Assembly (NCBI RefSeq): GCF_017356035.1
Contig: NZ_JAFIQX010000004.1
Location: 1-64,000, forward strand
Direction: 5' to 3'
DNA from: Longitalea luteola
GTDB lineage: Bacteria > Bacteroidota > Bacteroidia > Chitinophagales > Chitinophagaceae
Length of the DNA: 64,000 nt
Under the pieces are notes generated by a model. The model had not been told where the DNA came from. It made no database searches and saw nothing but the letters and a program-made list of their open reading frames with translations. The position numbers and the translations under genes were made by a program. Below are positions 6,301 to 63,310 of the stretch, piece by piece; within the stretch, counting starts at the first letter, position 1; every line of letters starts with the position of its first letter.

Positions 6301-6593
6301 ATACGCTGAACATTCCTACCATGAACATCAACTCCTCCCTGGGCTTCCTGGAATTCTCCGGTACCCAGTCGCTGGATATGAATATGCAATACTATGTGCG
6401 CATTCCCCTTAAAATGGTAACCCAGGTAGGTTTCCGCATGTTGTTCAATAAAAAGCAGGAGGAAGTAGACCCCGATCAGGTGGATGCCATCGAATACCGG
6501 GACAAGGATAGGCGCGTTCGATTTATGAACCTGACCATTACCGGCACACCGGACAACTATAAAGTCAATTTGGGCAAACCTAAGAAGGCTTAA
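3330..6593 (+). CDS. AsmA family protein
   Basis: This 1087-residue protein has one N-terminal membrane anchor (about residues 10-32, FLLIPVIVLVLLVATAFTML). The AsmA-type start of the mature region follows, VESSKISLFENFPYISVRLNNVRLYG. The long beta-rich body suits the repeating beta-groove fold of AsmA/TamB/YhdP proteins, inner-membrane anchored periplasmic bridges linked to lipid transport and outer-membrane assembly. A Pro/Arg-rich linker (PRPRRRRGGDTS) near residues 780-800 separates a C-terminal AsmA-like domain (about 830-1087). It has its own promoter and is not in an operon. The final Ala codon and the TAA stop lie inside a heptanucleotide array (first unit CTTAACG at 6589-6595), so the natural C-terminus may have been altered. 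Its exact cargo is unknown. Confidence 0.85.
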   Translation: MKSKTRKRLIRFLLIPVIVLVLLVATAFTMLVTQQSRLVKLAVKEFNKKLSGTISVESSKISLFENFPYISVRLNNVRLYGGKSTTQKPLFQAERMFAGFSLKDILNQNYNVKVIGMKNGHLDVVAEKNGQVNIVEASRITSDTTTATDTAQSPLKLDIRKIILRNMAISYLDKPSGRHIVTQIERIQSSVQNDSLKINAALTGKFVIDYTSPGNSTLFRQKHLETDLAVLYEKSTELVTINTGKLKVEDAVFNITGSASLQQNNNAVDIKFGGDKPDLQQLFAFVPESVAKQLKHFRYDGHVNFEGTVKGSLANGQMPRIDVSFGCTKAWLHNTQSDKKLDSLAFKGYYTNGDQKNSTTSELRLLGVHAKPGTGIFDGNFIMRNFDNPKILMQVDSDLELGFIGAFLGIKDLQRITGQISLKMNFKELVDMSMPEQQVGRLTEGVQSELTVKNLTFRIPNYPYNVERLNLHADMKNGFVRLDSLACRIGQSDFYLNGSLSDLPAIFHHQTKPVVATLNARSQKMVLRELLNIDTTKNRRGKEEIYGFNIGVSLTTSVNELLHPNPLPKGIVKIERLNAGFKRYPHTFHDFGAELTIADTSLRLKNFAGLIDSTDIAFSGRVNNYALWFDSVKKGRTEIAFDLKSKRLALRDLLGRRSKRSVPKAFHDEVATNVWLRSKTMLRYDSVFKFAKIKLANVSGHLTKHAFELDSIKGTVMFNTENFIKIDTLTGKVGRSDFDINMRLYTGKDSTRRMKENYLRFNSRFLDVDQMTNYKFDMTMEKPRPRRRRGGDTSAAPEAAVPVQTVSSPSVHAKAFNIFQVPFVDFKASVNIGKIKYRRLWIKNVASNVRMLENHHLYLDTLHMEMAGGKIDARAHFNGNNPEKIYLRSRIKVDDIDLEKMMLKLDYLGQDYVINKNIRGHITGQVKGYMRIHPDLTPMLDQSQAQLDINIYNGELINFAPMAAMSAYFKDKNMMKVRFDTLRNVLTFKDNTLNIPTMNINSSLGFLEFSGTQSLDMNMQYYVRIPLKMVTQVGFRMLFNKKQEEVDPDQVDAIEYRDKDRRVRFMNLTITGTPDNYKVNLGKPKKA

Positions 6594-6698
6594 CGCAGAA
6601 CGCAGAACGCTTAACGCGCAGCGCATAACGCAGAACGTTCCGTATTAAACCTTGCGCCTTTAGCCTTGAGCCTTCAGCCTTGCGCCTTCAGCCTTTTC
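6589..6698. repeat. Two heptanucleotide arrays between convergent gene ends
   Basis: Array 1 (6589-6637) reads CTTAACG CAGAACG CAGAACG, then CTTAACG CGCAGCG CATAACG CAGAACG, that is seven units of nnnAACG type. Array 2 (6650-6691, trailing to 6698) is six units of CCTTnnG. The AsmA stop TAA (6591-6593) and the sigma factor stop (TCA on +, 6674-6676) are both inside units. Confidence 0.9.
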
Positions 6699-7936
6699 AG
6701 TACTTTCATAAGCGTATTCTTTTCAGATATGGAGGTACTGAGCGTGATCGCCTGCTCATAATGTATTTTCGCTTTCTCAATATTGGTATCCGCATACAAA
6801 TATCCCAGCAGCGCATGATAGTAATTGAGATCGGTCAGGTTTAATTTTTTCACTTCCTGGATAGCCTGTTTATGACCGTACACTTTGCCAATGGCAAAAG
6901 CCCTGTTCAGCGCCGTGAGCGGCGAATATTCAAGAATGATGAGTTGATTGTATAATTGTAAGATATGCTCCCATTTATTTTGACCGGTAGGCGTAGTATG
7001 CCAGTAGGCAATACCGGCTTCCAGGTGATATTTCGAGATCTCATTGCCCAAACAGGCATTCACGAGGTAATAATTCCCTTTCGCTATCAGCTCTTTGCTC
7101 CATAAACTTTTATCCTGCTCTTCAAACAAAATGGCTTCACCCGCATCATTGGCCCTGGCATCGAGCCGTGAGCTCTGAAAACACATCAGGGCGAGCAGGG
7201 CATTGGTTTCAGTGGTATTCGTGGCGGCATGCTCCGTTAAAACAAGCGTCAACCTGATAGCTTCAGAACAAAGATCTTTTCTGATCAAATGATCGTCTGT
7301 TTTGGAAAAATAACCTTCGTTGAACAACAGGTACAAAACCCGTAATACGGCTTCCAGCCGGGCCGGCGATGCATCCACAGGGTGGGAGAGTGCATGTTTG
7401 AATGACGGATTACGCAGGTTGGCCCTGGCGCGTAACAATCGCTTTTTGATCGTTTCTGTTTTTGCGAGGAACGCGCTGGCAATTTCTTCAATACTGAACC
7501 CGCAAAGAATTTTCAGCGCTAAACAGATCTGCGCTTCTGTTGAATTTACCGGATTGCAAACAGCAAAGATCATCGCCAGCTGGCTGTCGGATATGATCTG
7601 GTGGGTAAAATCCAGGTCCTGCTCTATCTCCAGTTCATTATTGCCGATGATAAGCGGAAGAGTGCCTTTGATCTTTGATTCAAAAAGGTTAACCCGCTTC
7701 AGATAGTCTCTTGTTTTGTTCTTCGCAACGGTGTACAACCAGGCCGTAGGGTTTTCGGGTTTGCCATTCACCCGCCACACTTCGGCTGCTTTTAAAAAAG
7801 TTTCGCTTACGATATCCTCTGCAATTTCAATGGCATGGAGGCCAAAAAGACGGCCTATTACAGCCGTCATTTTGCTATACTCCATCCTGAAAAGTTGCGG
7901 TAAAAGCTCATTATGCGAATTCGCAAATGTCTCCAT
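6674..7936 (-). CDS. ECF sigma factor with long C-terminal extension (ECF42-like, DUF6596)
   Basis: The 420-residue protein has sigma-70 region 2 at its N-terminus (EIAEDIVSETFLKAAEVW, then AWLYTVAKNKTRDYLKR). Region 4 lies around residues 120-175 (FSIEEIASAFLAKTETIKKRLLRAR). A ~200-residue TPR-like C-terminal domain follows (SRLDARANDAG, ALNRAFAIGKVYG, YHALLGYLYADTNIEKAKIHYEQA). This layout is that of the ECF42/DUF6596 sigma factors, which lack an anti-sigma gene and are encoded beside DGPF/YciI proteins, exactly as here (the DGPF gene is 5 bases upstream). The C-terminal domain probably controls activity. The last residues (KAQG) and stop are encoded by a heptanucleotide array. The target regulon is unknown. 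Confidence 0.9.
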   Translation of the reverse strand: METFANSHNELLPQLFRMEYSKMTAVIGRLFGLHAIEIAEDIVSETFLKAAEVWRVNGKPENPTAWLYTVAKNKTRDYLKRVNLFESKIKGTLPLIIGNNELEIEQDLDFTHQIISDSQLAMIFAVCNPVNSTEAQICLALKILCGFSIEEIASAFLAKTETIKKRLLRARANLRNPSFKHALSHPVDASPARLEAVLRVLYLLFNEGYFSKTDDHLIRKDLCSEAIRLTLVLTEHAATNTTETNALLALMCFQSSRLDARANDAGEAILFEEQDKSLWSKELIAKGNYYLVNACLGNEISKYHLEAGIAYWHTTPTGQNKWEHILQLYNQLIILEYSPLTALNRAFAIGKVYGHKQAIQEVKKLNLTDLNYYHALLGYLYADTNIEKAKIHYEQAITLSTSISEKNTLMKVLKRLKAQG

Positions 7937-7941
7937 GTTGC

Positions 7942-8286
7942 TTAATTGTTCTCTCCGGGTGTCAACAGGGCCCTTACTTCAACGCTGCCACCCATTTTAA
8001 GGATCGGGTTACCCTTCGCCAGCTCGATGGCTTCGTCAATAGTTGTCGTTTTTACAACAATATAGCCCCTGACGAATTCCTTGATCTCTGTGAACGGGCC
8101 ATCGGTGACAATATTGTCCGGCAGCACCGTTTTGGCCTGTCCCATAGACAACCGGTTGCCTTTGTCAACCAGTTTATTTTGCGCGGCAATACCGGCCAGC
8201 CAGTTCATTCGCTCCTGCATTTGCTCAGGCGTTGGAGTATCGGGTGCCGGATTACTGTTTCTGAAGATCAGCATAAACTCTTTCAT
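7942..8286 (-). CDS. YciI/DGPF domain protein
   Basis: This small protein begins MKEFMLIFRNSN and carries the signature DGPFTEIKEFVRGYIVV. It belongs to the YCII-related (DGPF) family, an alpha/beta ferredoxin-like fold with no settled biochemical role. I chose the internal ATG at 8286 because the family begins at MKEFMLI; an upstream ATG at 8310 would add MQTQNCTI. It is the first gene of a two-gene unit with the ECF42-like sigma factor (5-base gap). That conserved pairing suggests it is part of, or a target of, the sigma factor circuit. Function is inferred only from this association. Confidence 0.88.
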   Translation of the reverse strand: MKEFMLIFRNSNPAPDTPTPEQMQERMNWLAGIAAQNKLVDKGNRLSMGQAKTVLPDNIVTDGPFTEIKEFVRGYIVVKTTTIDEAIELAKGNPILKMGGSVEVRALLTPGENN

Positions 8287-8349
8287 GATCGTACAATTTT
8301 GTGTTTGCATGATAACGATTGAAAGGTAAACGGGGGGACAAAAACATCC

Positions 8350-8401
8350 AAAAAAATAAATGCCCGGTAAGCCGGTATCACCTGATACCAGCCCCGGGCA
8401 T
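8350..8401 (-). terminator. Intrinsic terminator after the TlpA-like gene
   Basis: ATGCCCGG (8360-8367) pairs with CCGGGCAT (8394-8401), with an inner stem GGTATCA/TGATACC. On the minus strand it is followed by a T-rich run (8350-8359). It lies just past the stop of the 8422-9786 gene. Confidence 0.8.
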
Positions 8402-8421
8402 GCCTGTTTAGCTGTATAATT

Positions 8422-9786
8422 TTATTTATTAAGTGTGTTCAGCAACAATTCCTTCAATTCGGGCATCGAAGGACGTGGGGAATCTACTGTAACAATTTTC
8501 CCTTCCTGGTCAAACACCAGGAAACGGGGAATACCGTGAATGTCGTAATATTTGGTGAAATCGCTCCAGCCTTTAGCGTATAGCTGAATGCCGCCCAACT
8601 GTTCTTTCTCTACAAAATTTTTCCATTTCTCTTTGTCCTTTTCTTCATCTACCGAAATGGATACAAAGGCAATGTTCTTATCCCTCAACTCTTCTTCCAG
8701 CTTTTTTAAATGCGGGATCTCCTTTTTACAGGGACCGCACCACGTAGCCCATACATCCACCAGCACTACTTTTCCTTTCAGGCTGGCCATACTAACCGGA
8801 TTCCCGTTTTTATCAGGGTACGAAAAATTAAATGCCTTATCGCCTTTTTTATACGTGCTCAGCTTTTTCAATGCCCGTGCATACCTCGCCTGCATGGAAT
8901 CAGTTATCAGGTATTTTTTTACCGGTTCAATTTCTTCATTGAATTTTTCCAGGGATCTGTAACCAGCCATCTGGTTTTCCACATAAACGCCCCGGATGGT
9001 ATCATTGCCAAAATAACCAAGGATCTCGGGCAACGATAACCTTGCATTTGCTTCAGGTTCCTTTACCCTGGTATATACATAAGTTGCGTACAACCTTATG
9101 AGATCAACCCCATAACCGGAATATAAAACGGCACTATTGGCAAACTTATTAGGTTGGTAGATACTTGCGTAATAGGGAATAATATCATTTTTACCAGGAT
9201 GCTTGCTATTAGGCGTAAACAGAAACTTTAAAGCAGCATGTTCAATGTCAATATCGATCGATCTTTTCAGCAGTTCATTGAAAGCCGCATTCGGCGTATT
9301 TACTTTTTTCTTGAATGCTTCCGCCTTTGGTAAAAAGCCGGCCAGGGTAGGAAAGAAGCTGGCATAAGTAACGGTATCTTTCCGGGGAAACACACTCATG
9401 CGGGTTACCGGCTGTGAGTAGCTGATCCATTCTTTCAGTATTTTATTTTCCGGCGAAGGTTGTATAAGTTCATAACCATCGTCATTGATAGTGATCTGAA
9501 ATTTATCGCCATCTTTTAAGTAGAAGCGGATAAAACTTCTCTTTTGCTGATCGCTTAAAAAATAAAACCCGCTTTTAAGCGGATGAGGCAATGCAAAAGC
9601 AAATTGATGATTATTCACCCGGGCTGTTGCCAGTTCCAGTTTCTCCCCCTGCTGAACATCATACAGAACAAGCGATTGCAAATTCTCTTTGTTGACCGTA
9701 CCCTGCACAATGGTCAATTTGCCCTGCGCAGCTACTACGGAAGTGGCAAGGCAAAACAATACACTAAATAATACCCTGATTCTCAT
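8422..9786 (-). CDS. TlpA-family thiol-disulfide oxidoreductase with N-terminal DUF4369-like domain
   Basis: The 454-residue protein has a signal peptide (MRIRVLFSVLFCLATSVVAAQG). Residues ~22-120 resemble DUF4369 (VQGTVNKENLQSLVLYD), the middle is helical, and the C-terminal thioredoxin/AhpC-TSA domain runs from ~315 to 454. The active site WATWCGPCKKE is intact, followed by SISVDEEKDKEKW and the cis-Pro loop GIPRFLVFD. Such proteins work in the periplasm, reducing or resolving disulfides in exported proteins. It is monocistronic, with its own terminator. It diverges from the ECF sigma gene of the SusCD locus (214-base gap) and may be served by the same physiological cue; that link is inference. 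Confidence 0.92.
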   Translation of the reverse strand: MRIRVLFSVLFCLATSVVAAQGKLTIVQGTVNKENLQSLVLYDVQQGEKLELATARVNNHQFAFALPHPLKSGFYFLSDQQKRSFIRFYLKDGDKFQITINDDGYELIQPSPENKILKEWISYSQPVTRMSVFPRKDTVTYASFFPTLAGFLPKAEAFKKKVNTPNAAFNELLKRSIDIDIEHAALKFLFTPNSKHPGKNDIIPYYASIYQPNKFANSAVLYSGYGVDLIRLYATYVYTRVKEPEANARLSLPEILGYFGNDTIRGVYVENQMAGYRSLEKFNEEIEPVKKYLITDSMQARYARALKKLSTYKKGDKAFNFSYPDKNGNPVSMASLKGKVVLVDVWATWCGPCKKEIPHLKKLEEELRDKNIAFVSISVDEEKDKEKWKNFVEKEQLGGIQLYAKGWSDFTKYYDIHGIPRFLVFDQEGKIVTVDSPRPSMPELKELLLNTLNK

Positions 9787-10000
9787 TTAATAGTTATTTT
9801 AAAAATGCCTGTTTGCTTATAGATAATATAATTTACGGCCGGTTTGCACCGGCATCATCATTCACTAATAGCATAAACGATGGAGATGAGATTTTTACCC
9901 CAGGATGGCAGGAAGTTTTGACAATAGAAAAAACGGTTGCTTAACAATTAATTACATAAACTGTAATTTTATTTTAATATTGGGGCACTTTTAAGGTTTC

Positions 10001-10636: not shown

Positions 10637-10737
10637 TAAATCAGGTTCCTCCGTTTTAATAGTTAGTTAACCACCTGAACCGCTAAAATACCATTGCCGC
10701 AATGTAAAGTTTCGGGCAGGGAAGATCCGACTTGTTT

Positions 10738-11760: not shown

Positions 11761-11783
11761 TAACCAGACATTAAAAAGCTCGA

Positions 11784-17561: not shown

Positions 17562-19004
17562 ATGACCAAACGTTATATCAATATTTATATATTTTGCCTG
17601 GCAGCGCTCGTGCTGGCAGCTTGTTATAAAGACAAAGGCAATTACGATTACCAGGCTATAAACGAAGTAACATTAAAAACCGACCGGGAAGCGATCAGTC
17701 TGATATTGCCCGATTCGCTAAAAGTAAACGTAACGATCGAACAAACCATACCTGATCCCGCCGGATTCAGTTTCGAATGGGTGTTGTATCTGGCCGGGGG
17801 CACCCCGCTTGAACGCCGGGTGCTCGATACGACGCAAAACCTGAAAGCCCGCATTACTGAACTGCCCGGCAGTTATTACCTCATGCTCTATGCAAAAGAT
17901 CGAAAAACAGGCGTAGAATATCAAAAGCGATTGGTTGTTTCCGTATTGACGGCCTATAGCGAAGGCTGGATGGTAGTAGAAGAAAATAACGGCGCCTGCG
18001 ACATTTCCATGATCAGTCCGGTTGATACTATCTTCAGGAATATTTATTCAACTACTAATAATGGACAAAAGTTGCCGGCCGGCACTTTCCGCATCCCTGA
18101 GATCAAGACCCATAACGGTGATCAAAAGATCTATATCATTTCGCCGGCCGATATGATCCAGGTTACCTATTCCGATTTCAAGAAATTGTCAACATTCAAC
18201 GAATTCTTCTGGGAGCCGCCCGTTCCAAAACCGCAGGAATACTTTGTGAACGGCACCGAGGATATGATGCTGAACAATGGCAAGATCCATAGCCGTTCAC
18301 TAAATGCTCCGTCAGGCGCTAATAAATTAAATCTGCCGCCTAGCGGAAACCACTTCATTGCCCCTTACGAACTCTATAGTGTGGCCAGCGGTTATGTCGT
18401 ATTTGACACCGTATCACAAAGCTTTTTGAAACTGAACGCAAGTTCATCCAGTTTAACGCCTTTTCCCACACCTTCGGGAACCCGGCTTTTTTACCTCAAC
18501 AACATTGGCAAGAAACTGCTGTATGCCGAGTTGAATGCATCGCCTAAATGCTACGCCTACTTCAAAAACAATGACAATGATTCGTTGTTTGCGTATGGCT
18601 TCAATCCTGCTGTAACGAACCCTGACCTGGATAAGACAGAGATCCTGAGTGCACCCGGTTTGATCGATGCCCGGTTATTCGTAGGCTCAAGAACACTGCC
18701 GCATTTATACTATGTAAGTGGCCATCAGATCTACAAACTGGACGTTCCGGCAAAAACAGCGGCGCCTGTATACAGCTTCCCCGCGGGTACTGAAATAAGG
18801 GCCATGAAAATGTACCGCAACCTGAAATTGAGTACCGATTCATACAACAATAAACTGATCGCTGTGGCTACACATGAGAACGGTGAGGGCAAGGTCTATT
18901 ATTTCCCCATCAGCCCAACGGGCAGCTTCGTCAACAATACCTATAGCAAAGTTTTCACCGGCTTCAATAAGATCAATGAAATAACATTCAAAAGCCTCAA
19001 ATAA
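17562..19004 (+). CDS. PKD-like family surface lipoprotein
   Basis: The 480-residue lipoprotein has lipobox LAALVLAAC followed by YKDKGNYDYQAINEVTL, the conserved start of the Bacteroidota PKD-like family (PF16407 type). The N-terminal ~110 residues form a PKD/Ig-like sandwich (FSFEWVLYLAGG). The rest has beta-propeller-like segments (GWMVVEENNGACDISMIS, KLLYAELNASPKCYAYFKN). It is the fifth gene of the SusCD operon. The TAA stop abuts a heptanucleotide array starting at 19007. The role is probably surface ligand binding alongside SusD; no catalytic motif is visible. Confidence 0.85.
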   Translation: MTKRYINIYIFCLAALVLAACYKDKGNYDYQAINEVTLKTDREAISLILPDSLKVNVTIEQTIPDPAGFSFEWVLYLAGGTPLERRVLDTTQNLKARITELPGSYYLMLYAKDRKTGVEYQKRLVVSVLTAYSEGWMVVEENNGACDISMISPVDTIFRNIYSTTNNGQKLPAGTFRIPEIKTHNGDQKIYIISPADMIQVTYSDFKKLSTFNEFFWEPPVPKPQEYFVNGTEDMMLNNGKIHSRSLNAPSGANKLNLPPSGNHFIAPYELYSVASGYVVFDTVSQSFLKLNASSSSLTPFPTPSGTRLFYLNNIGKKLLYAELNASPKCYAYFKNNDNDSLFAYGFNPAVTNPDLDKTEILSAPGLIDARLFVGSRTLPHLYYVSGHQIYKLDVPAKTAAPVYSFPAGTEIRAMKMYRNLKLSTDSYNNKLIAVATHENGEGKVYYFPISPTGSFVNNTYSKVFTGFNKINEITFKSLK

Positions 19005-19006
19005 GG

Positions 19007-19055
19007 CTGAAGGCGCAAGGCTGAAGGCTGAAGGCGCAAGGCTGAAGGCTGAAGG
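19007..19055. repeat. Heptanucleotide array (CTGAAGG/CGCAAGG)
   Basis: Seven consecutive 7-base units: CTGAAGG (5 copies) and CGCAAGG (2 copies), directly after the PKD-like gene stop (19002-19004). Same word family, opposite orientation, as 6650-6691; same orientation as 63131-63179. Confidence 0.93.
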
Positions 19056-19089
19056 CAAAACTCAGTTATCGGTGTTTTTGCGTTTTGCG

Positions 19090-19130
19090 CCTGCCTGCCG
19101 GCAGGCAGGTTCAGCGTTCAGCGTTCAGCG
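19090..19130. repeat. 20-bp perfect palindrome plus three TTCAGCG heptads
   Basis: CCTGCCTGCCGGCAGGCAGG (19090-19109) is its own reverse complement. It is followed by TTCAGCG three times (19110-19130). It lies between the SusCD operon and the thioredoxin-like gene and could form a hairpin in either transcript, but has no T-run. Confidence 0.85.
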
Positions 19131-19149
19131 TTAAAATTAAATAATGATC

Positions 19150-23721: not shown

Positions 23722-23819
23722 AGTTTTACATTCAGTATAACAATTTATTAAAAAAACAGGATTTTGTTGCCACCATCATCTTGTGAACCTATCACTGGTC
23801 AACTTGTTAACTAATTAAC

Positions 23820-23847
23820 TTGTCAACTTTTTAAGCTGTATCTTTGC
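23820..23847 (+). promoter_or_regulatory. Promoter of the HMA-AraC regulator, nearly leaderless
   Basis: TTG at 23820-23822 and TATCTTTGC at 23839-23847, spacing 16. The expected transcription start falls within a few bases of the ATG at 23851, so the mRNA may be leaderless. An inverted repeat GTTAA-CTAA-TTAAC lies just upstream (about 23807-23819), a possible operator. Confidence 0.6.
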
Positions 23848-37727: not shown

Positions 37728-37755
37728 AAAAAAAGACTCCGGCTGTACCGGAGTC
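37728..37755 (-). terminator. Intrinsic terminator, expression platform of the TPP riboswitch
   Basis: On the minus strand GACTCCGG-loop-CCGGAGTC (37755-37735) is followed by seven U residues (37734-37728). It lies right after the aptamer, as expected for a transcriptional off-switch. Confidence 0.85.
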
Positions 37756-37757
37756 CT

Positions 37758-37855
37758 CATGTATTCTTCAGTCCCTTCGCTGGCATTATCCAGATCAGGT
37801 TGTCGGGGTATGTTCTCAGGTTCAATTTTCATGAGTAGGTTCCTCACGGATTCTT
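37758..37855 (-). promoter_or_regulatory. TPP (thiamine pyrophosphate) riboswitch, apparently orphan
   Basis: The minus strand contains CTGAGAACATACCCC then ACCTGATCTGGATAATGCC and AGCGAAGGGA, the near-invariant J3-2, P4/J2-4 and P5 parts of the THI element. The P2/P3 side (GAGGAACC...) is less canonical. A terminator follows. The next 200 bases hold only a 24-codon frame (37727-37653, MSFLMGNIQPSEAGSGLLIA, then four more residues) and the following gene is a response regulator, not a thiamine gene. Confidence 0.85.
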
Positions 37856-38298
37856 CTCATTTTATTTAACCACCCCCTTGAAGAATATTTGTCATTATTT
37901 ATATAAAACACGTGCCAGCAAATGCCCGCTTTAACTCAAACGATCCTGGGGCATATTGTGGAAATATCTCAGCACCGGGTTCAACAAAAAAATTTTCTGG
38001 GGTATATTTTTTATGTTTAATGATTTGTAAATAGCTTTATTCACGAACGGTTCTCTCACCCTAGCTCGCCGTTTGTTCACACACTTCTGCTACAGACGTG
38101 TTCCATTTATTAATTACAGTTTAAATATCGATGTCAGGCACCGGTAATTTGATATATAACGTATAATAACAAACGTTGTTTGTACAGGAGCAGTTCATAA
38201 ATAGTTGATCAGTGTTTACAACAATAAAGTAATCAATCCAGTGAGCATTAAAATTGCAGTATATGGTTCACATTTTCTAACGATTAAACACTTTAATT
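37856..38298. other. Upstream region of the KGG protein gene
   Basis: About 440 AT-rich bases with no supported ORF. An inverted repeat ACAAAC-gtt-GTTTGT lies around 38167-38181 and could be an operator; no exact TAnnTTTG box was found. This region should hold the KGG gene promoter and the start of the riboswitch transcript. Confidence 0.4.
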
Positions 38299-41495: not shown

Positions 41496-41966
41496 ATGGA
41501 CATCATCGTTGAAACACCCAAAGGAAGTGCGCAGAAATATACCTATGATAAGGACCTGAAATTATTCCGTTTTAAGAAAGTGCTCGCTGCCGGACTTGTA
41601 TTCCCTTTTGACTTTGGTTTTATTCCCGGCACGCGGGGAGAAGACGGCGACCCGTTGGACATAATGGTGATCTCTGAATACAACGGCTTCCCGGGTTGCG
41701 TAATGGATGTACGCGTCGTTGGCTGCCTGCCTGCTATGCAAACATATGCAAGGAAATCTTTCCGCAACGATCGCTATATTGGCGTACTGGAGCAAAGCTC
41801 AGCCTATGAGCAGATCACGACGCTGGAAGATCTGCCCTCGGCCTTAATCGATAGCATCAAGCTGTTTTTTACCACTTACCTTCAGGCGGAAGGAAAAACG
41901 GTTAACTGGGAAACAGAATTGAATGCGTTGCAGGCGATGGAACAAGTTCAAAGTTCAAAGCTTTGA
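41496..41966 (+). CDS. ppa: Inorganic pyrophosphatase, family I (divergent)
   Basis: The 156-residue cytosolic enzyme would hydrolyse PPi to phosphate. The signature EDGDPLDIMV (three catalytic Asp) is intact, as are the substrate Glu and Lys near the start (VETPKGSAQKY) and VDLPSALIDSI-like helices. Differences: the metal-binding acidic residue usually found in the AEQTE or MTDE segment is replaced (PAMQTYARKSF), and the next site reads RNDRYIGV. It is shorter than the E. coli enzyme (175). The last codons (SSKL) and the TGA stop are encoded by a heptanucleotide array, so part of the native C-terminus may have been overwritten. Activity is probable but not certain. Confidence 0.85.
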   Translation: MDIIVETPKGSAQKYTYDKDLKLFRFKKVLAAGLVFPFDFGFIPGTRGEDGDPLDIMVISEYNGFPGCVMDVRVVGCLPAMQTYARKSFRNDRYIGVLEQSSAYEQITTLEDLPSALIDSIKLFFTTYLQAEGKTVNWETELNALQAMEQVQSSKL

Positions 41967-42092
41967 GTTCAAAGTTTAAAGTTCAAAGTTCAAAGTTTTA
42001 AGAGTCTAAGTTTTGTCTTAAGTACAAAGCCTAAAGTACAGTTTAAAGTTCAGGGAACTTTAAACTGTAAACTATGAACTATGAACTTTTAG
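41947..42092. repeat. Heptanucleotide arrays between convergent gene ends (TTCAAAG; CTATGAA)
   Basis: From 41947: TTCAAAG TTCAAAG, CTTTGAG, TTCAAAG, TTTAAAG, TTCAAAG TTCAAAG, then degenerate units; from 42065: CTGTAAA, CTATGAA twice, CTTTTAG. The pyrophosphatase stop (TGA, 41964-41966) and the oxidoreductase stop (TAG on minus, 42081-42079) are both inside units. Confidence 0.9.
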
Positions 42093-43128: not shown

Positions 43129-43137
43129 AATTATATG

Positions 43138-43179
43138 CTTAACGCTAAACGCTTAACGCATAACGCTTAATACAAAACG
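43138..43179. repeat. Heptanucleotide array (CTTAACG type)
   Basis: Six units: CTTAACG, CTAAACG, CTTAACG, CATAACG, CTTAATA, CAAAACG. Same word family as 6589-6637. It sits in the 5' region of the luciferase-like gene. Confidence 0.9.
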
Positions 43180-43239: not shown

Positions 43240-43281
43240 TTTTGCGTTTTGCGTTCGGCGTTCTGCGTTCAGCTTTCTGCA
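43240..43281. repeat. Heptanucleotide array (TTnnGCG type)
   Basis: Six units: TTTTGCG twice, TTCGGCG, TTCTGCG, TTCAGCT, TTCTGCA. Related to the TTCAGCG units at 19110 and, in reverse complement, to CGCAGAA words. Confidence 0.88.
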
Positions 43282-43390
43282 TTTAATAACCAAATGTATC
43301 CTAAAAATGTTTATATCTGGTTCACTATACTCTGGGGAAGTAACTGCAAAACAACTTATTTTCACGCCATGAAACACATTGCTTTAGCCA

Positions 43391-43978: not shown

Positions 43979-43996
43979 TAGTCAATAATCGTGAGA

Positions 43997-44083
43997 CGGC
44001 AAACGGAAAACCGGCAAATGTGAAACGGCAAACATGTAAGAGCAAACGGAATACCGGCAAACGTGAAACGGCAAACGAAAGAA
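43997..44083. repeat. Heptanucleotide array (CGGCAAA type) with occasional extra base
   Basis: Units such as CGGCAAA, CGGAAAA, (C)CGGCAAA, TGTGAAA, CGGCAAA recur twice in nearly the same order from 43997 to about 44083, downstream of the fucosidase fragment. Confidence 0.85.
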
Positions 44084-53108: not shown

Positions 53109-53169
53109 CTAATATGCTAATGTGCTAACACTGTGAGGGCAGGCCTCCATTTGCACATTAGCATATTAG
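53109..53169. repeat. 17-bp perfect inverted repeat of octanucleotide words
   Basis: CTAATATGCTAATGTGC (53109-53125) and GCACATTAGCATATTAG (53153-53169), 27-base loop. The words are those of the GCTAATnn arrays at 59532, 61588 and 63083, here in head-to-head orientation. It lies just after the first SBBP gene. Confidence 0.93.
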
Positions 53170-53246
53170 CTAATTGGTTCACATGTTCCTTATGAAAATG
53201 GCATATAACTACTGTTAACCATTACTAACTCTTAAAACTTCAGATT

Positions 53247-56231
53247 ATGAGTAACATGTTGCTCATCTGGAAGCCATTATTGCTTGCCAGTCTCCATTTT
53301 ATTTCAACTATTGGTTTTACTCAGGTTACCGAAAAATGGGTAAAGCGGCAGAACGGAGATGCCAATACCCATGACATAGCAAGGGACCTGGTAATAGACT
53401 GTAAAGGTAATATTATTGTAACGGGACTTATCGATGGCAATGAAAACCTTTCCAATACTAACTGGGCCACTATTAAATACAACGATGATGGTGATACAAA
53501 ATGGGTAAAGAAATACAAGGGACCTGGAAATGGAGACGATGAAGCAACAGCCATAACAACAGATAACAACGGTAATATTTATGTGACAGGATGGAGTACC
53601 GGCATTGGTACTTCCAGCGACTTTACTACCATTAAATACGACGATGACGGCGATATAAAATGGGTAAGAAGATATAACGGGCCGGGGAATAGCAGTGATG
53701 AAGCATTCGCCATTGCCGTGGATGCAGATGGAAATGTTTATATAACCGGCAGAAGTACGGGCAGCGGGACCGCTGAAGATATTACCACCATCAAATACGA
53801 TGAGGATGGTCATACGGAATGGATAAGAAGATATAACGGACCGGGTAATGAAAGGGATCAGCCTACCGCCATTGCCGTGGATAAGAAGGGCAACGTATAT
53901 GTAACGGGATGGAGCGCCGGCATTGGAACCGGCAGTGATATTACCACTATTAAATACGACGATGATGGTGATTTGAAATGGGTAAGCCGGTATAACGGCC
54001 CTGTCAATGAATTCGACAGGGCAAATGACCTTGCCCTCGACGAAAACGGCAATGTGTATGTAACAGGGTCCATCACCACCCACGTGATTGAAGATTTTGG
54101 GATCATAAGTGACATTGCCACGATCAAATACAATACATTGGGTCAGCAGCAATGGCTTGCCGTATTTAGCCGCGAGGGTCACGACGAAGGAAATGCGCTG
54201 GCGGTGGATGCTGCAGGCAACGTGTACATAGGCGGAATTACCGGGTCTGCTCCCGGAAATCCTGACAATGACTATGTAACCATTAAATACAATACGGCAG
54301 GCGTGCAGCAGTGGGAGGCCTTTCTTGAAGGCACTGGCAATGATGAAAACAGCCTGGTCCATGACCTGTTGCTAGACAAAACGGGCAATGTGTATATTAC
54401 CGGCGCCCTTTCAGTGCGAATTGTCGGCGTCAATTTTTTCATAAATGAAACAGACTATGCTACTGTCAAGTATAATTCAAATGGTGTGCAACAATGGGCA
54501 GCCACCTATGACGGCCCCGGAAACGCCAGTGATATAGCATTTGCCATGGGTCTCGACAACAATGGAAACATATATGTAACCGGAAGAAGCGCTATTGACA
54601 GGTTTGACTTTGCCACCATTAAATACGATGCCGATGGTGAGCAAGAATGGTTAAAAAGATATAACGGCCAGAACGTTCAGGTAAAAGGAGGCCCCGATTT
54701 CGCAACTGCCCTGGCACTAGACAAGCATGGTAATGTGCATGTAACAGGCGGTATCACCAGGCTTCATACCGGAATGGACTACACCACTTATAAGTATGAT
54801 CCGGATGCAAACAGAATATGGAAAAAAACATACAACGGCCTGGGTGTTGGCCCCGACAAAGCCAGTGCCATAGCGGTTGATGCCAAAGGAAATGTGTATA
54901 TAACGGGAACAAGCGATGGAGGCGGCACTCGTGACGACTATACTACCGTTAAGTATGACAAATACGGCGATACAAAGTGGGTAAGAAGATATAATGGCCC
55001 CGGTAATTCCAACGATCAGGCTACTGCCATTGCTGTTGATGAAAACGGCAATGTGTATGTAACGGGGTTGAGCTTTGGAAACTCACCGGATTATGCTACT
55101 ATTAAGTATGACAATAGTGGAAATACGATATGGATAAAACGTTATAATGGTCCAGGCAATACATCCGATCAGGCCACAGCCATTGCTGTAGACATACAGG
55201 GCAATGTATATATAACAGGACACAGTCAGGGCAGTGGCAGTGAATCAGACTATGCCACCATTAAGTACGATGCCAATGGAAATGAACAATGGACGGCAAG
55301 ATACAATGGCCCTGATAATTACCTTGATGAAGCTAATGCCCTGGCGCTGGATGCCAATGGCAATGTATACGTCACTGGTGGCAGTTGGGGTGGTGGCACG
55401 GAGGACTTTGCTACTATTAAGTACAATACAGCTGGCGTGCTGCAGTGGGTGGCCAGGTACGATGGTTCCACGAGCTCTGGTTTCGATAAGGCCAGGGATA
55501 TAGCCGTAGATGTTTCCGGTAATGTATATGTAACAGGGCAGAGCCAGGGCGATTATACTACTATCAAGTACAATACTGCCGGCGTGCAGCAATGGCTGGC
55601 GGCGTATAACAATGGTTCAGAAGATATAGCCAATGCGCTGGCACTGGATGCCCGGGGAAATGTATATGTAACAGGAAGCAGCAGGTCAACCAACGGTTTT
55701 TTTGAAGACTATGCTACCATTAAATACAATGCAGCGGGCCTCGAACAATGGGTGGCCAGGTACGATGGTCCCGGACACACCGTAGATATTGCAACCGCTA
55801 TTGCCGTGGATGATGACGGTCATGTATATGTAACAGGGCACAGCTCTGGTGATCAAACCTTTTTTGATGGATCGTCATCCGATTATGCCACCATTAAATA
55901 TGAACAAACGCCCGGCAACGAAAGAATAAGCCAACCTGTAATAACGAATAGTGATTTGCCAGCCAGCTTCCAGGTTACCGTTGCACCTAATCCGGCTGCT
56001 GTTGCCACTAAAATATTTTATGAACTGCCATTTGAAGGCCGGGTGATTATACAGGTATTTGATCTTTTAGGCCGGCAGATTACGACATTGACGGATGCCA
56101 CCAAACCAGCAGGCTTTCATAATGAAGAATTCAATGTAACCACACTACAGAAAGGCATTTATGTTTACCGCATTAAAGTAAAAACAGAAAAGACTGAGTG
56201 GTCGCAAACAGGAAAACTAAAAATTAACTAG
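53247..56231 (+). CDS. SBBP-repeat protein with T9SS type A sorting domain (994 aa)
   Basis: Signal peptide to about residue 25 (TIGFTQ). About sixteen SBBP units follow with consensus AIAVDxNGNVYVTGxSxGxGTxxDxTTIKYDxxGxxxWVRRYNGPGN. The C-terminal sorting domain (FQVTVAPNPAAVATKIFYELP ... GIYVYRIKV) is nearly identical to that of the 51340 gene, which shows recent duplication or conversion of the 3' end. A surface protein with several beta-propellers; role unknown. Some units near residues 240-420 carry extra inserts (HVIEDFGIISD, VRIVGVNFFINETD). A decayed unit of a similar gene lies after the stop (56252-56325). Confidence 0.92.
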   Translation: MSNMLLIWKPLLLASLHFISTIGFTQVTEKWVKRQNGDANTHDIARDLVIDCKGNIIVTGLIDGNENLSNTNWATIKYNDDGDTKWVKKYKGPGNGDDEATAITTDNNGNIYVTGWSTGIGTSSDFTTIKYDDDGDIKWVRRYNGPGNSSDEAFAIAVDADGNVYITGRSTGSGTAEDITTIKYDEDGHTEWIRRYNGPGNERDQPTAIAVDKKGNVYVTGWSAGIGTGSDITTIKYDDDGDLKWVSRYNGPVNEFDRANDLALDENGNVYVTGSITTHVIEDFGIISDIATIKYNTLGQQQWLAVFSREGHDEGNALAVDAAGNVYIGGITGSAPGNPDNDYVTIKYNTAGVQQWEAFLEGTGNDENSLVHDLLLDKTGNVYITGALSVRIVGVNFFINETDYATVKYNSNGVQQWAATYDGPGNASDIAFAMGLDNNGNIYVTGRSAIDRFDFATIKYDADGEQEWLKRYNGQNVQVKGGPDFATALALDKHGNVHVTGGITRLHTGMDYTTYKYDPDANRIWKKTYNGLGVGPDKASAIAVDAKGNVYITGTSDGGGTRDDYTTVKYDKYGDTKWVRRYNGPGNSNDQATAIAVDENGNVYVTGLSFGNSPDYATIKYDNSGNTIWIKRYNGPGNTSDQATAIAVDIQGNVYITGHSQGSGSESDYATIKYDANGNEQWTARYNGPDNYLDEANALALDANGNVYVTGGSWGGGTEDFATIKYNTAGVLQWVARYDGSTSSGFDKARDIAVDVSGNVYVTGQSQGDYTTIKYNTAGVQQWLAAYNNGSEDIANALALDARGNVYVTGSSRSTNGFFEDYATIKYNAAGLEQWVARYDGPGHTVDIATAIAVDDDGHVYVTGHSSGDQTFFDGSSSDYATIKYEQTPGNERISQPVITNSDLPASFQVTVAPNPAAVATKIFYELPFEGRVIIQVFDLLGRQITTLTDATKPAGFHNEEFNVTTLQKGIYVYRIKVKTEKTEWSQTGKLKIN

Positions 56232-56325: not shown

Positions 56326-56345
56326 TCTTACTGTCTTCATGAAAA

Positions 56346-56511: not shown

Positions 56512-56612
56512 CTCTAATTCCATTTTTAGGGAAAATTTTCCCCACCTTGTGTTAAAAACTTTAACGGCAGAATTGAGTAACAAGGAGTACTTTACATTTA
56601 AAGGATTTTTAT

Positions 56613-57173: not shown

Positions 57174-57234
57174 AATTCAGGAACGGAAATTCTTAATTGA
57201 AAAATAATATTATTTTTAGGAACAAAACCGACCA

Positions 57235-59521: not shown

Positions 59522-59531
59522 AAACCAATTG

Positions 59532-59642
59532 GCTAATTTGATAATATGCTAATGTGCTAATGAAATACAGGCTGGCATCGAAAAACCAAAAAGCCAATTA
59601 GCTAATTTGAAAATATGCTAATGTGCTAATGAAATACAGGCT
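59532..59642. repeat. Two direct copies of a 43-base octanucleotide element
   Basis: Copy 1 at 59531-59573 and copy 2 at 59600-59642 share GCTAATTT-GATAATAT-like octads then GTGCTAATGAAATACAGGCT. The same ending occurs at 63113-63132. They follow the ATP-grasp gene stop (59521). Confidence 0.93.
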
Positions 59643-59697
59643 AAGTGAGTGTTACGGTAAGTATGGAAAATATAGTACTGCGCAACAATGAAGCATT

Positions 59698-59789
59698 ATC
59701 AAATTATCGAATTATCACATCATCACATTAGCATTAGCCAATCAGCACATTAGCACATTAGCATATTAGTATTAGCACATTAGCACATT
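59698..59789. repeat. Octanucleotide array (ATTAGCAC, ATCnnATT)
   Basis: Units ATCAAATT, ATCGAATT, ATCACATC, ATCACATT, then ATTAGCAC/ATTAGCAT repeated up to the LysE start at 59795. The opening units match those at 61724-61755. Confidence 0.9.
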
Positions 59790-59794
59790 GAACG

Positions 59795-60427: not shown

Positions 60428-60438
60428 AAGACCAACTT

Positions 60439-60591
60439 GATTTCTGATTTCGGGACTTTGGGATTTCCTGATTTCGGGATTTTGAGATTTTGGGATTTTG
60501 AGATTTTGGGATTTTGAGATTTATTGGAATATTCAAACAGGAGGAAATCTCGAAATCTCGCAATCTCGAAATCAGAAATCAGAAATCAGCA
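60439..60591. repeat. Octanucleotide array (GAGATTTT/GGGATTTT) with inverse partner
   Basis: Left part: alternating GGGATTTT and GAGATTTT (60475-60522). Right part (60543-60591): GAAATCTC twice, GCAATCTC, then GAAATCA three times. The two halves are roughly complementary and may fold into a long imperfect hairpin in the LysE 3' region. Confidence 0.88.
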
Positions 60592-60726
60592 ATTGCATTT
60601 CAGTGCCGTTCAGCTCGTTATATAAGGAAAACAATTTCCACCAGGGATCATACTAAAAAAAAATGTAATTCGTTTTAAACGTGGTACCCGGTTACCAGTC
60701 TGAGCCGGATCATAAACCAAAACCCC

Positions 60727-61587
60727 ATGCAAAAGACACCATCCATTTTTCTGGGCATTATGGCCTGTTTCATCATTACACTATCATTTACAGCCTGTAA
60801 AAAAGATTCCAAACCGTCAACAGATAGCGATACCACCGCAGCACAGGACAATGCTATGGCAGAATCGGCTTATACCGATGCCAATACAATGGTGGATGCA
60901 TCCGTAACCTATGGCGCCAACTTTTCCTTCAGGGTAGCCACGAATGAACCAGCTGCCCGGATAGAAGAAGTCTTAGGGAACTGCGTAACGGTAACCATCG
61001 ATACCGTGAACGCCACCCGCTCGGTAGTCATTAATTTCGGCACCACCAACTGCCTCTGTGTTGATGGCAGAAAACGCCGCGGCCGCATCCTGGCCAACTG
61101 GACGGGCAGGTACCGCGAGGCAGGAACTGTAGTGAATATAACGTATGACAATTACTTTGTAAACGATAACCAGATCAAAGGAACCCATAAGACCACCAAC
61201 ATGGGCGCCAACAATGCCGGTAACCTGGTATACAAGATCGAGGTGAACGGTACGATCGTGAAAGCCAATAACGGAGGAGAAATTACCTGGGAGTCTACCC
61301 GCCAACGCGAATGGGTGGCCGGCATTAACACCCCGCTGAACATTTTGGATGATATTTATTCCATTACCGGTTCTGCTACCGGTACAGTGGCTTCGGGCCA
61401 TGCCTATACCATTAACATCACCCAGGCACTGGTTCGTAAAATGACCTGTAACTGGTTTGAAAGCGGTAAAATTGAGCTAACGCCTGAAGGGCTGGCAACC
61501 CGCACCCTTGATTACGGTAGTTCCGGCTGCGATGCCAATGCTACCGTTACAATAGGAGGAGCAACGTTTAATGTAGTGTTACCCTAA
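60727..61587 (+). CDS. Conserved Bacteroidota lipoprotein, 286 aa
   Basis: Lipobox ITLSFTAC is followed by KKDSKPSTDSD and a short acidic linker (~25-60). A beta-rich domain has CVTVTIDTVNATRSVVINFGTTNCLCVDGRKRRGRI, TWESTRQREWVAG and a final segment GCDANATVTIGGATFNV. Four Cys (N...C, C-L-C, and C...G-C) may form disulfides. The fold is unknown, but the pattern recurs in the phylum. It is monocistronic, with a repeat array starting at its stop. Function unknown. Confidence 0.8.
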   Translation: MQKTPSIFLGIMACFIITLSFTACKKDSKPSTDSDTTAAQDNAMAESAYTDANTMVDASVTYGANFSFRVATNEPAARIEEVLGNCVTVTIDTVNATRSVVINFGTTNCLCVDGRKRRGRILANWTGRYREAGTVVNITYDNYFVNDNQIKGTHKTTNMGANNAGNLVYKIEVNGTIVKANNGGEITWESTRQREWVAGINTPLNILDDIYSITGSATGTVASGHAYTINITQALVRKMTCNWFESGKIELTPEGLATRTLDYGSSGCDANATVTIGGATFNVVLP

Positions 61588-61756
61588 TAATATGATAATG
61601 TGATAATTGGATAATGTGATAATGGAAAACAAAAACGCAATTGCTAATGTGTAATCTGTTAATGAAAACAAATACATTGTGTGCTATTAGCTATGAAAAT
61701 TCGGATCAGCCTGTGGCTGTACAATCAAATTATCAAATTATCGAATTATCACATTA
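61588..61756. repeat. Octanucleotide arrays between convergent gene ends
   Basis: From 61596: GATAATGT, GATAATTG, GATAATGT, GATAATGG. From 61724: ATCAAATT twice, ATCGAATT, ATCACATT. The iron-sulfur protein stop (TGA on minus, 61751-61749) is inside the last unit. Confidence 0.9.
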
Positions 61757-63068
61757 ATTCGGAAACCCATTTATCCCTGTCATCAGGACTGAACTTCCAC
61801 GGCGCGAAATTATTCTCCACATTGCTGAACATGACGTTCCATTCCTGGGGTGCATTACTTTCTTCCATGATCAGCGACCGGCGCAGCTCGAGAATGATCT
61901 CCAGCGGACTTATATTCACCGGGCATTCCTGTACACAACCGTTACAGGTAGTGCAGGCGCGTAGCTCTTCAACGGTGATATAATCATGCAGCAGGGTTTT
62001 ACCATCATCTTTAAACTCCCCGTTTTGATCGATGTTCTTGCCCATGTCTTCCATGCGGTCGCGGGTGGCCATCATGATCCTGCGCGGTGATAACTTTTTA
62101 CCCGTTATTGTAGCCGGACAGGCCGCACTGCAGCGACCGCATTCCGTACAGGAATATGCATCGAGCAAATTCCGCCACGTAAGGTCGGTTACTTCTTTGG
62201 CGCCGAATGTAGCAGGTGGTGTGGCATTGGCCGGCGCCATCTCCGGCTGCATCGCATACAGCACTTCATTCTGAATGGCAGGCATATTATTCATCTTGCC
62301 CATAGGCTGCAGGCGGGAATAGTAAGCATTGGGGAACGCCAGTATAATATGCAGGTGTTTCGAGTAGGGGAGGTAGTTCAAAAAAGCATAAATGCCCAGG
62401 ATATGCAGCCACCAGCAGGTTCTTTCAACAGCCACCAGGGCGCTATTGCTTAAACCGTTCAGTAAAGGATGCAGGAGGGAAGAGAAGGCAAAATTACCGG
62501 TAGGGTTTTCGCCGTAATGTCCATACCCGCGTTGTTGCAACAGGGTATCGGAGGCATTCATGGTCAAAAAAAGCGTCATCAGTACGATCTCGGTAATGAG
62601 AATATAATTGGCATCGCTGCGGGGCCAACCGTTCAGATCGGGACTGGCCAGGCGTTTTACCTTTACTACATTTCTTCTTATAAGGAAAATGACACAGGCC
62701 AGTAAAACGGTGATGGCGAGAAATTCAAAAGAGTTGATGAGGAAGGAATAAAAGCCGCCACCGATCTGTGAAAAAATACGATGGGTGCCCAATAATCCAT
62801 CTATTATGATCTCCAGTACTTCAATATTGATAATGATGAAGCCGGCATAAATAAAAAAGTGCATCACCGCTACCAGGGGATTGCGGAACATCTTTTTTTG
62901 TCCGAACGCGATCAGCAATACATTCTTCCACCGTTCACCCGGCCGGTCAGAAAAGTCGGCGTCTTTTCCTAACAGGATATTCCGGCGGATAGCCATTATC
63001 TTTTTTGTAAACAACCAGATGGCTATGGCCGAAACAATGATAAAAAGGATCTGTGGTATGTATGACAT
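61749..63068 (-). CDS. Membrane iron-sulfur oxidoreductase subunit (two 4Fe-4S clusters)
   Basis: The 439-residue protein has an N-terminal membrane domain with five helices (YIPQILFIIVSAIAIWLFT, VAVMHFFIYAGFIIINIEVLE, FEFLAITVLLACVIFLI, LITEIVLMTLFLTM, TCWWLHILGIYAFL) like the NarI/HdrE-type quinone or haem domain. A cytosolic ferredoxin domain follows with two cluster motifs, CTECGRCSAACP and CTTCNGCVQECP. In related operons the next gene encodes a CCG-domain protein; here none follows within the window. The final Met codon and TGA stop lie in an octanucleotide array. It is likely to pass electrons between quinone and a soluble partner (inferred). Confidence 0.9.
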   Translation of the reverse strand: MSYIPQILFIIVSAIAIWLFTKKIMAIRRNILLGKDADFSDRPGERWKNVLLIAFGQKKMFRNPLVAVMHFFIYAGFIIINIEVLEIIIDGLLGTHRIFSQIGGGFYSFLINSFEFLAITVLLACVIFLIRRNVVKVKRLASPDLNGWPRSDANYILITEIVLMTLFLTMNASDTLLQQRGYGHYGENPTGNFAFSSLLHPLLNGLSNSALVAVERTCWWLHILGIYAFLNYLPYSKHLHIILAFPNAYYSRLQPMGKMNNMPAIQNEVLYAMQPEMAPANATPPATFGAKEVTDLTWRNLLDAYSCTECGRCSAACPATITGKKLSPRRIMMATRDRMEDMGKNIDQNGEFKDDGKTLLHDYITVEELRACTTCNGCVQECPVNISPLEIILELRRSLIMEESNAPQEWNVMFSNVENNFAPWKFSPDDRDKWVSELM

Positions 63069-63082
63069 AGCACTAAGATAAC

Positions 63083-63179
63083 GCTAATTAGCTAATTTGC
63101 TAATTTGCTGATGTGCTAATGAAATACAGGCTCAAGGCTGAAGGCTCAAGGCTGAAGGCTCAAGGCTGAAGGCGTAAGG
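63083..63179. repeat. Octanucleotide array passing directly into a heptanucleotide array
   Basis: GCTAATTA, GCTAATTT twice, GCTGATGT, GCTAATGA, AATACAGG (63083-63130) followed without gap by CTCAAGG/CTGAAGG three times each and CGTAAGG (63131-63179). Confidence 0.95.
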
Positions 63180-63198
63180 AAAAACGCACAGCATTCGG

Positions 63199-63310
63199 CA
63201 ACCGGTAACCGGCAACCGGTAACTGGTAACCGGTAACCGGCAACTGGTAACCGGTAACCGGCAACTGGCAACCGGTAACCGGTAACTGGTAACTGATAAC
63301 CGGCAACCAG
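63199..63310. repeat. Sixteen heptanucleotides of CAACCGG/TAACCGG type
   Basis: Perfect 7-base register over 112 bases with words CAACCGG, TAACCGG, CAACTGG, TAACTGG. It ends 10 bases before the bestrophin stop codon. Confidence 0.95.

Follow-up and report, generated by a model that had tools for sequence, protein, structure and literature searches.

Degenerate heptad and octad arrays at gene ends of Longitalea luteola and their possible role as gene-boundary stem arms

Intergenic regions of Longitalea luteola carry short tandem arrays of degenerate 7- or 8-nucleotide (nt) words, in which a constant core is combined with variable bases. We analyzed these arrays in a 64,000-base stretch of the 7.30 Mb, 43-contig genome (contig bases 1–64000, referred to in the following as the window) and in a larger sample of 1.064 Mb. 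The arrays lie at gene ends, often have an inverted partner, carry a G-rich strand that reads away from the gene and have a unit length that follows their content of guanine and cytosine (GC); their words turn over between species, the regions that hold them fold more strongly than shuffled sequence, and intrinsic terminators are depleted where two or more arrays occur. They are a many-word form of a thinly described heptad element, and what is new here is the number of vocabularies, the two unit lengths, and a layout and polarity that do not depend on a capacity for G-quadruplex formation. Our best explanation, which we offer tentatively as one that could well be right, is that the arrays are sequence-degenerate stem arms, remodelled by whole words and probably kept as gene-boundary insulators.

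The main sample contained 671 intergenic regions, defined by genes called as greedy longest open reading frames (ORFs), with no trained gene finder. Smaller samples of the same genome were used for the period scan (464 kb), for the position and pairing counts (the first 864 kb) and for the comparison of orthologs (a 364-kb stretch). In 175 of the 671 regions we detected degenerate arrays with a period of 7 or 8; there were 259, 148 made of heptads and 111 of octads, numbers that vary with the score thresholds of the scripts (13–16). The commonest size was four units (37 of the 148 heptad and 36 of the 111 octad arrays), in a count from which the threshold drops most shorter arrays. In the 8,693 intergenic bases of the window there were 10 segments of period 7 and 9 of period 8, with none at the other unit lengths from 2 to 13, and each of 100 shuffles of this DNA gave no segments at periods 7 and 8. 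The array detector returned 20 arrays in the window. Table 1 lists the arrays described for the window, with coordinates.

A preliminary description of the window had reported in-register 7- and 8-nt arrays at a series of loci, with one design under many words. The arrays at those loci were confirmed, as was the common design of a period of 7 or 8, a constant core and variable bases. An excess at lags 7 and 8 in intergenic DNA, on which that description had staked its claim, was also found. When the intergenic DNA of the 464-kb sample was matched to itself at fixed lags, period 7 gave 43 segments, period 8 gave 24 and period 11 gave one; the remaining periods within 2–13 gave none, nor did shuffled sequence, and lags that are multiples of 7 and 8 were present, as expected. 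Predicted coding DNA, five times longer, yielded nine segments of period 7 and one of period 8. By these scans the arrays are longer than chance, yet degenerate, where the long simple sequence repeats of Mrazek are near-perfect. Among named genomes the nearest is that of Longitalea arenae (Chitinophagaceae, Bacteroidota), with 20 kb largely syntenic and ≈81% identity over the longest block. An assembly artefact, considered earlier as a way in which the claim might fail, is unlikely, because all four other members of the genus that were sampled carry arrays, including G148, which is listed as one contig of 9.03 Mb, and because the independent L. arenae assembly contains two of the arrays unchanged and others in nearly identical form.

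The words had been called unrelated. They are indeed many, forming 31 to 57 clusters according to the threshold, many of them small, but "unrelated" was too strong, since many belong to families that are reused across the genome. A four-unit AAGGCnn pattern had 289 overlapping matches genome-wide, against one for the reversed control, with matches in 6 of 146 other genomes of the family and none in L. arenae; a four-unit GATAATnn pattern had matches in 8 of 394 other genomes of the phylum. Single words are therefore species-specific. The design recurs across the phylum, but patchily: the arrays are dense in the genus Longitalea and recurrent in Bacteroidota. In single 20-kb stretches sampled from other genera in the family there were 9 period-7 segments (3 of 20 stretches), and in those from other Bacteroidota there were 8 of period 7 and 4 of period 8 (7 of 20 stretches); no other unit length from 2 to 13 was represented by more than one segment. 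Niastella, sampled at four loci, gave 11, 3 and 2 segments at periods 7, 8 and 11, respectively, and 14 loci from other Chitinophagaceae gave 4 at period 7 and none at period 8. There was no clear excess in 36 loci from Sphingobacteriaceae and Dyadobacter (3 at period 7, 1 at period 8 and 2 at period 3). Separately, in a Bacteroidota relative outside the family (L234, 11693–12103), a terminator-like hairpin is preceded by AAAGG heptads and followed by AACCT heptads, by eye the same layout as described below.

Most arrays lie between genes, as the preliminary description had it, although several extend over the neighbouring gene's end (6585, 19003, 41944). In the first 864 kb, 126 of 194 arrays were nearest a stop codon, at a median distance of 3 nt, with 44 of these 126 overlapping the gene end, and 68 were nearest a start, at a median of 27.5 nt. 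Stops made up 558 of the 1,098 region sides. Of 103 convergent regions 35 held arrays, as did 15 of the 94 divergent ones. Within 45 nt downstream of stop codons, sense-strand stop triplets occurred at 8.4 per 100 nt with arrays and 5.4 without, and all three frames were closed in 43% of 122 cases with arrays, compared with 16% of 399 without. A role as translation-stop arrays was nevertheless rejected as the common cause; on inspection, the AGTTC, AGTTAT and GTTACAG families place stops mainly on the other strand.

A reverse-complement partner within the same region was found for 48% of 187 arrays (match score of 12 or more), compared with a direct partner for 25% and a figure of 8% for other regions. 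Neighbours of the same period were inverted and of the same family in 20 of 43 cases, against 826 of 10,014 at random. Within the window, 59527/59695, 60446/60544, 61587/61724 and 43137/43240 are such partners; the preliminary description had overlooked the paired inverted layout, as well as the start at gene ends, the excess of G over C and the way in which unit length follows GC content. The geometry is clearest in the octad family AATnnGMT, with 65 arms of 3–6 words, mostly with AAT at both start and end. Its arms of three or more words form 22 convergent pairs (19 distinct partner arms) and no divergent ones, and the orientation of the family tracks geometry, with 41 outward and 4 inward, start sides included.

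An AATACA-like motif lies next to the arm end in 19 of the 65 arms of this family. This shared end, the common start at AAT and constant cores at fixed spacing would suit tandem binding sites for a nucleic-acid-binding protein, as has been proposed for the TAACTGA repeats. However, orientation follows geometry, not gene sense, the many word clusters would call for many proteins, and orthologous sites carry different words, which makes protein binding a distinctly improbable explanation. RNA-binding sites in the mRNA sense were rejected as the sole cause; the start-side arms are mostly antisense to the adjoining gene.

Polarity was counted on the strand reading away from the gene for the 224 arrays clearly on one side of a region, leaving out 35 mid-region arrays. 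There were 167 arrays with G>C and 41 with C>G, and without the two largest octad families the ratio was 94:26 of 130 (p=3e-10). On the stop side it was 114:25, compared with 136:129 of 292 for DNA without arrays after stops, and on the start side 53:16, compared with 210:127 of 368 for DNA without arrays before starts. The same polarity was seen in L. arenae (55:12 of 71) and in the pooled arrays of other genera (30:9 of 39). Four or more GGG runs, the capacity for a G-quadruplex, were present in only 9 of the 259 arrays, and the polarity was 131:29 among 172 one-sided arrays without four GG runs. Because the same layout is found in arrays that are unable to form a quadruplex, the quadruplex is not its common cause. 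Expansion driven by R-loops under outward transcription was also set aside, as it would not fit the start-side polarity.

The polarity might instead serve the loading of Rho. A read-through transcript would pass a G-rich, C-poor arm and then, beyond the loop, present a pyrimidine–C (YC) step every 7–8 nt, on which Rho would load and stop antisense or read-through transcription. Rho-utilization (rut) sites are described as unstructured stretches, rich in C and poor in G, in which YC repeats are the basic element (PMC9160355). Near stops, YC occurred at 6.8 per 100 nt outward and 12.6 inward, compared with 9.7 and 9.9 in DNA without arrays, and no fixed word would be required. On the other hand, the inward C content is only moderate, and the arms are short for rut sites. 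Furthermore, Rho loading cannot explain the class as a whole, because Cyanobacteria are reported to lack Rho (PMC13289151), yet Nostoc has similar heptads (PMC4692102). We therefore consider this explanation unlikely.

Unit length was related to composition. Mean GC content was 43.7% for the 148 heptad arrays and 29.5% for the 111 octad arrays, and the nearest-neighbour duplex energy per unit was almost the same, at -9.45 and -9.49 kcal/mol, respectively (p=0.9). With the unit lengths swapped, the energies would be -10.8 and -8.3 kcal/mol. At the level of word families the GC difference persisted (p=0.0007 to 0.03, by threshold), and the energies did not differ. L. arenae showed the same split in GC content (p=4e-8).

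Folding was compared with shuffled sequence for regions of 80–260 nt, with no more than 70 regions per class. The mean z-score was -0.97 in 70 regions with no array, -1.88 in 58 with one and -3.02 in 48 with two or more. When five genomes were pooled, intrinsic terminators were found in 89 of 119 convergent regions with up to one array and in 13 of 32 with two or more (p=0.0005), in a split that was chosen after the data were seen and among genomes that are related. A GC hairpin followed by a T-run was thus absent from 30 of the 119 and 19 of the 32 regions, respectively, with the arrays included in the scan. Among co-directional regions, terminators were present in 9 of 50 with two or more arrays and 129 of 392 with fewer (p=0.035). 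A first, crude scan of convergent regions gave fractions of 0.13 (of 23, two or more arrays) and 0.47 (of 59, no arrays); a more careful one gave 10 of 23 and 42 of 59, with 17 of 19 for regions with one array.

Comparison with L. arenae showed how quickly the words change. In the 364-kb stretch, 159 of 235 L. luteola intergenic regions have a syntenic counterpart. Arrays were present in both species in 45 of these, in L. luteola only in 20, in L. arenae only in 8 and in neither in 86, and family and orientation were retained for 39 of the 77 L. luteola arrays within shared regions. The window contains examples of each fate: an array may be conserved (61587, with nearly identical word order and two bases different), changed in copy number (60446), rewritten (43137, where the ortholog has GCTAAT, AATGG and GGTAACC words) or absent (6585). 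At the site of the AGTTCnn array (41944), L. arenae and Niastella vici have words like those of L. luteola, and N. populi has different ones. In 54 alignable arrays, a subset biased toward conserved ones, substitutions were found at 180 of 1502 core positions (12.0%), 140 of 538 variable positions (26.0%) and 1498 of 9069 positions in the rest of the region (16.5%). Because the cores are identical in all words of an array, the exchange of words is visible solely at the variable bases; the contrast fits whole-word rewriting, and strong selection on the cores is therefore not needed to account for it. The two arms of a pair share their use of GATAAT or GCTAAT (r=0.52, 22 pairs), and at some loci the choice was switched on both sides (r=0.93 for the change, 7 loci, p=0.004).

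Such turnover is also what neutral copying error would give. Misalignment by 7–8 nt during replication would make and rewrite arrays between genes, where selection is weak, and the arrays would have no function, with position, pairing and polarity as by-products. The faster divergence of the variable bases than of the rest of the region is in keeping with this, as is the constant energy per unit. In 93 heptad arrays of five or more units, unit identity fell from 0.76 at lag 1 to 0.71, 0.68 and 0.63 at lags 2, 3 and 4, although detection on lag 1 biases this comparison. Mrazek is cited as proposing that 7 nt is the segment of DNA held by the polymerase (via PMC4679880; the idea is also cited in PMC4692102). 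Neutral copying does not, however, predict the 167:41 polarity, the 22:0 excess of convergent pairs or the occurrence of paired arrays where terminators are scarce, and adjacent words in the octad family are identical less often than expected. We consider it a real possibility, if on balance a doubtful one.

Another way to spread arms would be by a transposase or by copying between loci. Repetitive extragenic palindromic (REP) sequences, bacterial interspersed mosaic elements (BIMEs) and REP doublets forming hairpins (REPINs) are, like the arrays, paired inverted intergenic elements near gene ends. Fairly sharp arm ends, the shared inner motif and sites with an array in one species and none in the other would agree with mobility, as would the finding that L. 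luteola arrays share slightly longer strings with each other than with L. arenae arrays (19.4 and 17.7 nt, respectively; p=0.0004). Unlike the REP-type elements, the arrays showed no fixed palindrome. Pfam counts of Y1_Tnp, the domain of REP-associated tyrosine transposases (RAYTs), were 1–3 per genome in the genus (9 genomes) and 0–7 elsewhere (19 genomes), with no link to arrays over the 28 genomes, and RAYT mobility was rejected. Recent copying between loci was likewise rejected, as there was no excess of shared strings of at least 28 nt (12 in L. luteola and 14 in L. arenae, of 154 queries). Mobile arms are thus a very unlikely explanation. As a separate observation, a palindromic insert (CCCGCAAAGCGGGACAAGTTGT and variants) that looks like a small mobile palindrome occurs inside octad arrays, where it follows AAT or GAT within a word (L173 ≈15359, L175 ≈18070, L194 ≈13384 and L039 ≈11676), in L. 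arenae too. Local duplication was seen at L169 (≈18615–18786, minus strand), where an octad arm of 38 bases is present in two copies (18742 and 18615) that share their left flank, and at 59527–59631 in the window, where the octad arm ending in AATGAAATACAGGC is duplicated and L. arenae has one copy.

Under the insulator explanation, a typical unit would consist of two short arrays in convergent, inverted orientation, each extending from a gene end, with a short loop between them and the G-rich strand of each arm reading away from its gene. Each word would supply ≈9.5 kcal/mol of duplex, with 7 nt when it is GC-richer and 8 nt when it is AT-rich. Misaligned copying, through slippage or unequal exchange, is the likely generator of the arrays, and by it whole words would be gained, lost and swapped, the layout being kept and the spelling not. 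We infer from the folding and the terminator counts that the paired arrays may act as a sequence-degenerate, two-way stem-loop that divides adjacent transcription units, partly replacing intrinsic terminators.

A number of observations weigh against this explanation. Comparing regions with no array to those with any array, the terminator contrast was not significant, so that the contrast at two or more arrays is a lead rather than proof, weakened also by the late choice of the split and the relatedness of the genomes; moreover, the orthologs showed no terminator lost as arrays were gained. A second word variant, TAAT/TGAT, was neither shared nor co-changing between arms (r=0.04 and -0.36), a family-free test of co-change at 12 loci was negative (p=0.41), and the variable bases of partner arms were no more alike than those of arms at different sites (19.2 and 19.8), which shows that word-by-word base pairing is not maintained. 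Base-pair compensation at the variable bases of a hairpin was accordingly rejected. In the octad family, the frequency of identical neighbouring words was 0.17, where 0.27 was expected, which is not the mark of simple slippage. The start-side polarity is partly background, because DNA without arrays before starts also leans toward G>C; the stop side of G148 lacked the polarity (5:5), the AACGC family breaks the rule, and the 35 mid-region arrays showed no polarity (15:19). Finally, the GC split was weak in the mixed set of other genomes (p=0.06), and since some heptads are AT-rich (the AGTTC family has 29% GC), the compensation between GC content and length is statistical only. We take the link as a real but statistical rule.

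The preliminary description had compared the arrays with cyanobacterial short tandemly repeated repetitive (STRR) sequences, and the likeness was upheld: both are tandem heptamers between genes, although 111 of the 259 arrays here are octads and the host is a member of the Bacteroidota. Heptanucleotide repeats are also said to form a hairpin in rnpB, in work attributed to Vioque in 1997. In P6b of the Nostoc tRNA-Leu intron, degenerate heptanucleotides pair into a hairpin, and two repeat classes occur at one locus across strains (Costa 2002, as cited in PMC3488679). Both of these lie inside structured RNA genes, whereas the arrays here occupy hundreds of intergenic sites and include octads. 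The design thus has published precedents, which also include the Xanthomonas and Nostoc heptads and the TAACTGA repeats. According to Rehm 2015 (PMC4692102), intergenic heptads with fixed and variable positions (GGGAATC/GGGANTN in Xanthomonas, GGGGA(C/T)T in Nostoc) are found on the coding strand beside the stop codon or across it, and upstream of starts on the non-coding strand; they are under-represented between divergent genes and have a four-unit mode that is tied to the four G-tracts of a quadruplex. The arrays resemble them in the convergent inverted pairs (there in Xanthomonas), the gene-end position, the outward G-rich strand and the four-unit mode. They differ in having many words and octads, compared with one G-rich word type per genome in that account, and in that the heptads there are read as quadruplex formers, as few arrays here could be. 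Recurrence in the same context between two Xanthomonas species was 83%; here, arrays recur in 45 of 65 L. luteola array regions and 39 of 77 keep their family. The TAACTGA direct repeats of MacGregor 2015 (PMC4679880), reported from Beggiatoaceae, Cyanobacteria and some Bacteroidetes, are likewise intergenic heptads, mixed in some Bacteroidetes with other heptamers. As described there, they consist of a single invariant word that in the main host lies mostly in forward orientation ahead of start codons, whereas the arrays here favour stops (126 of 194). Neither GGGAATC pairs nor TAACTGA tandem pairs were found in the 1.064 Mb. In the open-licence literature, our searches turned up neither a description of a many-word system with two periods nor one of a link between GC content and unit length.

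At 63199, 16 perfect heptads had been reported; 14 match nAACnGG exactly and two are imperfect.

Table 1. Heptad and octad arrays in the window, with strand and context.
Feature	Position	Strand	Remarks
Heptad array nnAACGC	6585..6637	+	Begins inside gene end (stop at 6593); L. arenae ortholog without array
Heptad array nnAAGGC (CCTTnnG on +)	6650..6695	-	Overlaps stop of facing gene 6674-7936; L. arenae ortholog without array
Heptad array AAGGCnn, 21-nt higher order	19003..19056	+	Begins at stop of 17562-19004
Inverted partner, heptad GCTGAAC (GTTCAGC on +)	19109..19132	-	
Weak octad array AGTTnnnn	23794..23834	-	Score 15; overlooked in preliminary description
Heptad array AGTTCnn	41944..42002	+	Overlaps end of pyrophosphatase gene 41496-41966
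Inverted partner of AGTTC array	42056..42087	-	
Heptad array nnAACGC, left arm	43137..43170	+	Contrary to G>C rule
Inverted partner, TTnnGCG on +	43240..43283	-	Contrary to G>C rule
Mixed heptad array CGGCAAA/GTGAAAC	43990..44077	+	L. arenae has different words
Weak octad array AATnnGMT, single arm	53148..53188	-	Score 13; overlooked in preliminary description
Octad arm (AATnnGMT), ends in AATGAAATACAGGC	59527..59562	+	
Second copy of 59527 arm	59581..59631	+	Duplicated locally; one copy in L. arenae
Inverted partner, octad array ATTAGCnn/ATTATCnn	59695..59789	-	
Octad array GATTTYGR, left arm	60446..60522	+	L. arenae: same family, different copy number
Inverted partner GAAATCTC, outer part period 7	60544..60593	-	
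Octad arm GATAATnn	61587..61624	+	Begins at stop of 60727-61587
Inverted partner nnATTATC	61724..61756	-	Overlaps stop of facing gene 61749-63068
Octad arm GCTAATnn	63083..63121	+	Upstream of start of 61749-63068; also in L. arenae
Heptad array AAGGCTS	63128..63179	+	Present here, not in L. arenae
Heptad array AACYGGY	63196..63308	+	14 exact units of 16; L. arenae array is shorter

A scan of the window with Rfam at the gathering score placed no family over any array; the sole match was a thiamine pyrophosphate (TPP) riboswitch at 37755–37887 on the minus strand, with 59.7 bits. Tandem repeats of ≈156 and ≈159 nt, both multiples of three, overlap large ORFs at 1–830 and 53467–54011 and probably encode repeat-rich proteins.

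A preference for seven-base units between bacterial genes has been noted before, with no settled answer. The many vocabularies of this one genome separate layout from spelling and show that the pattern of four units, placed at gene ends with G outward, cannot in general be caused by a quadruplex. They also suggest a physical rule, equal duplex energy for each unit, that can be checked in any genome. More speculatively, and with less confidence than in the insulator explanation itself, the heptads of Xanthomonas, Nostoc, Beggiatoa and Bacteroidota might be dialects of one gene-boundary class defined by layout rather than sequence, with inverted arms at gene ends, the G-rich strand outward and a constant duplex energy that dictates the length of the unit (7 nt for GC-rich and 8 nt for AT-rich words); a genome could use many vocabularies side by side and exchange them at a site without losing the element. 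If paired arrays do insulate genes, terminator finders would miss transcript ends in array-rich Bacteroidota.

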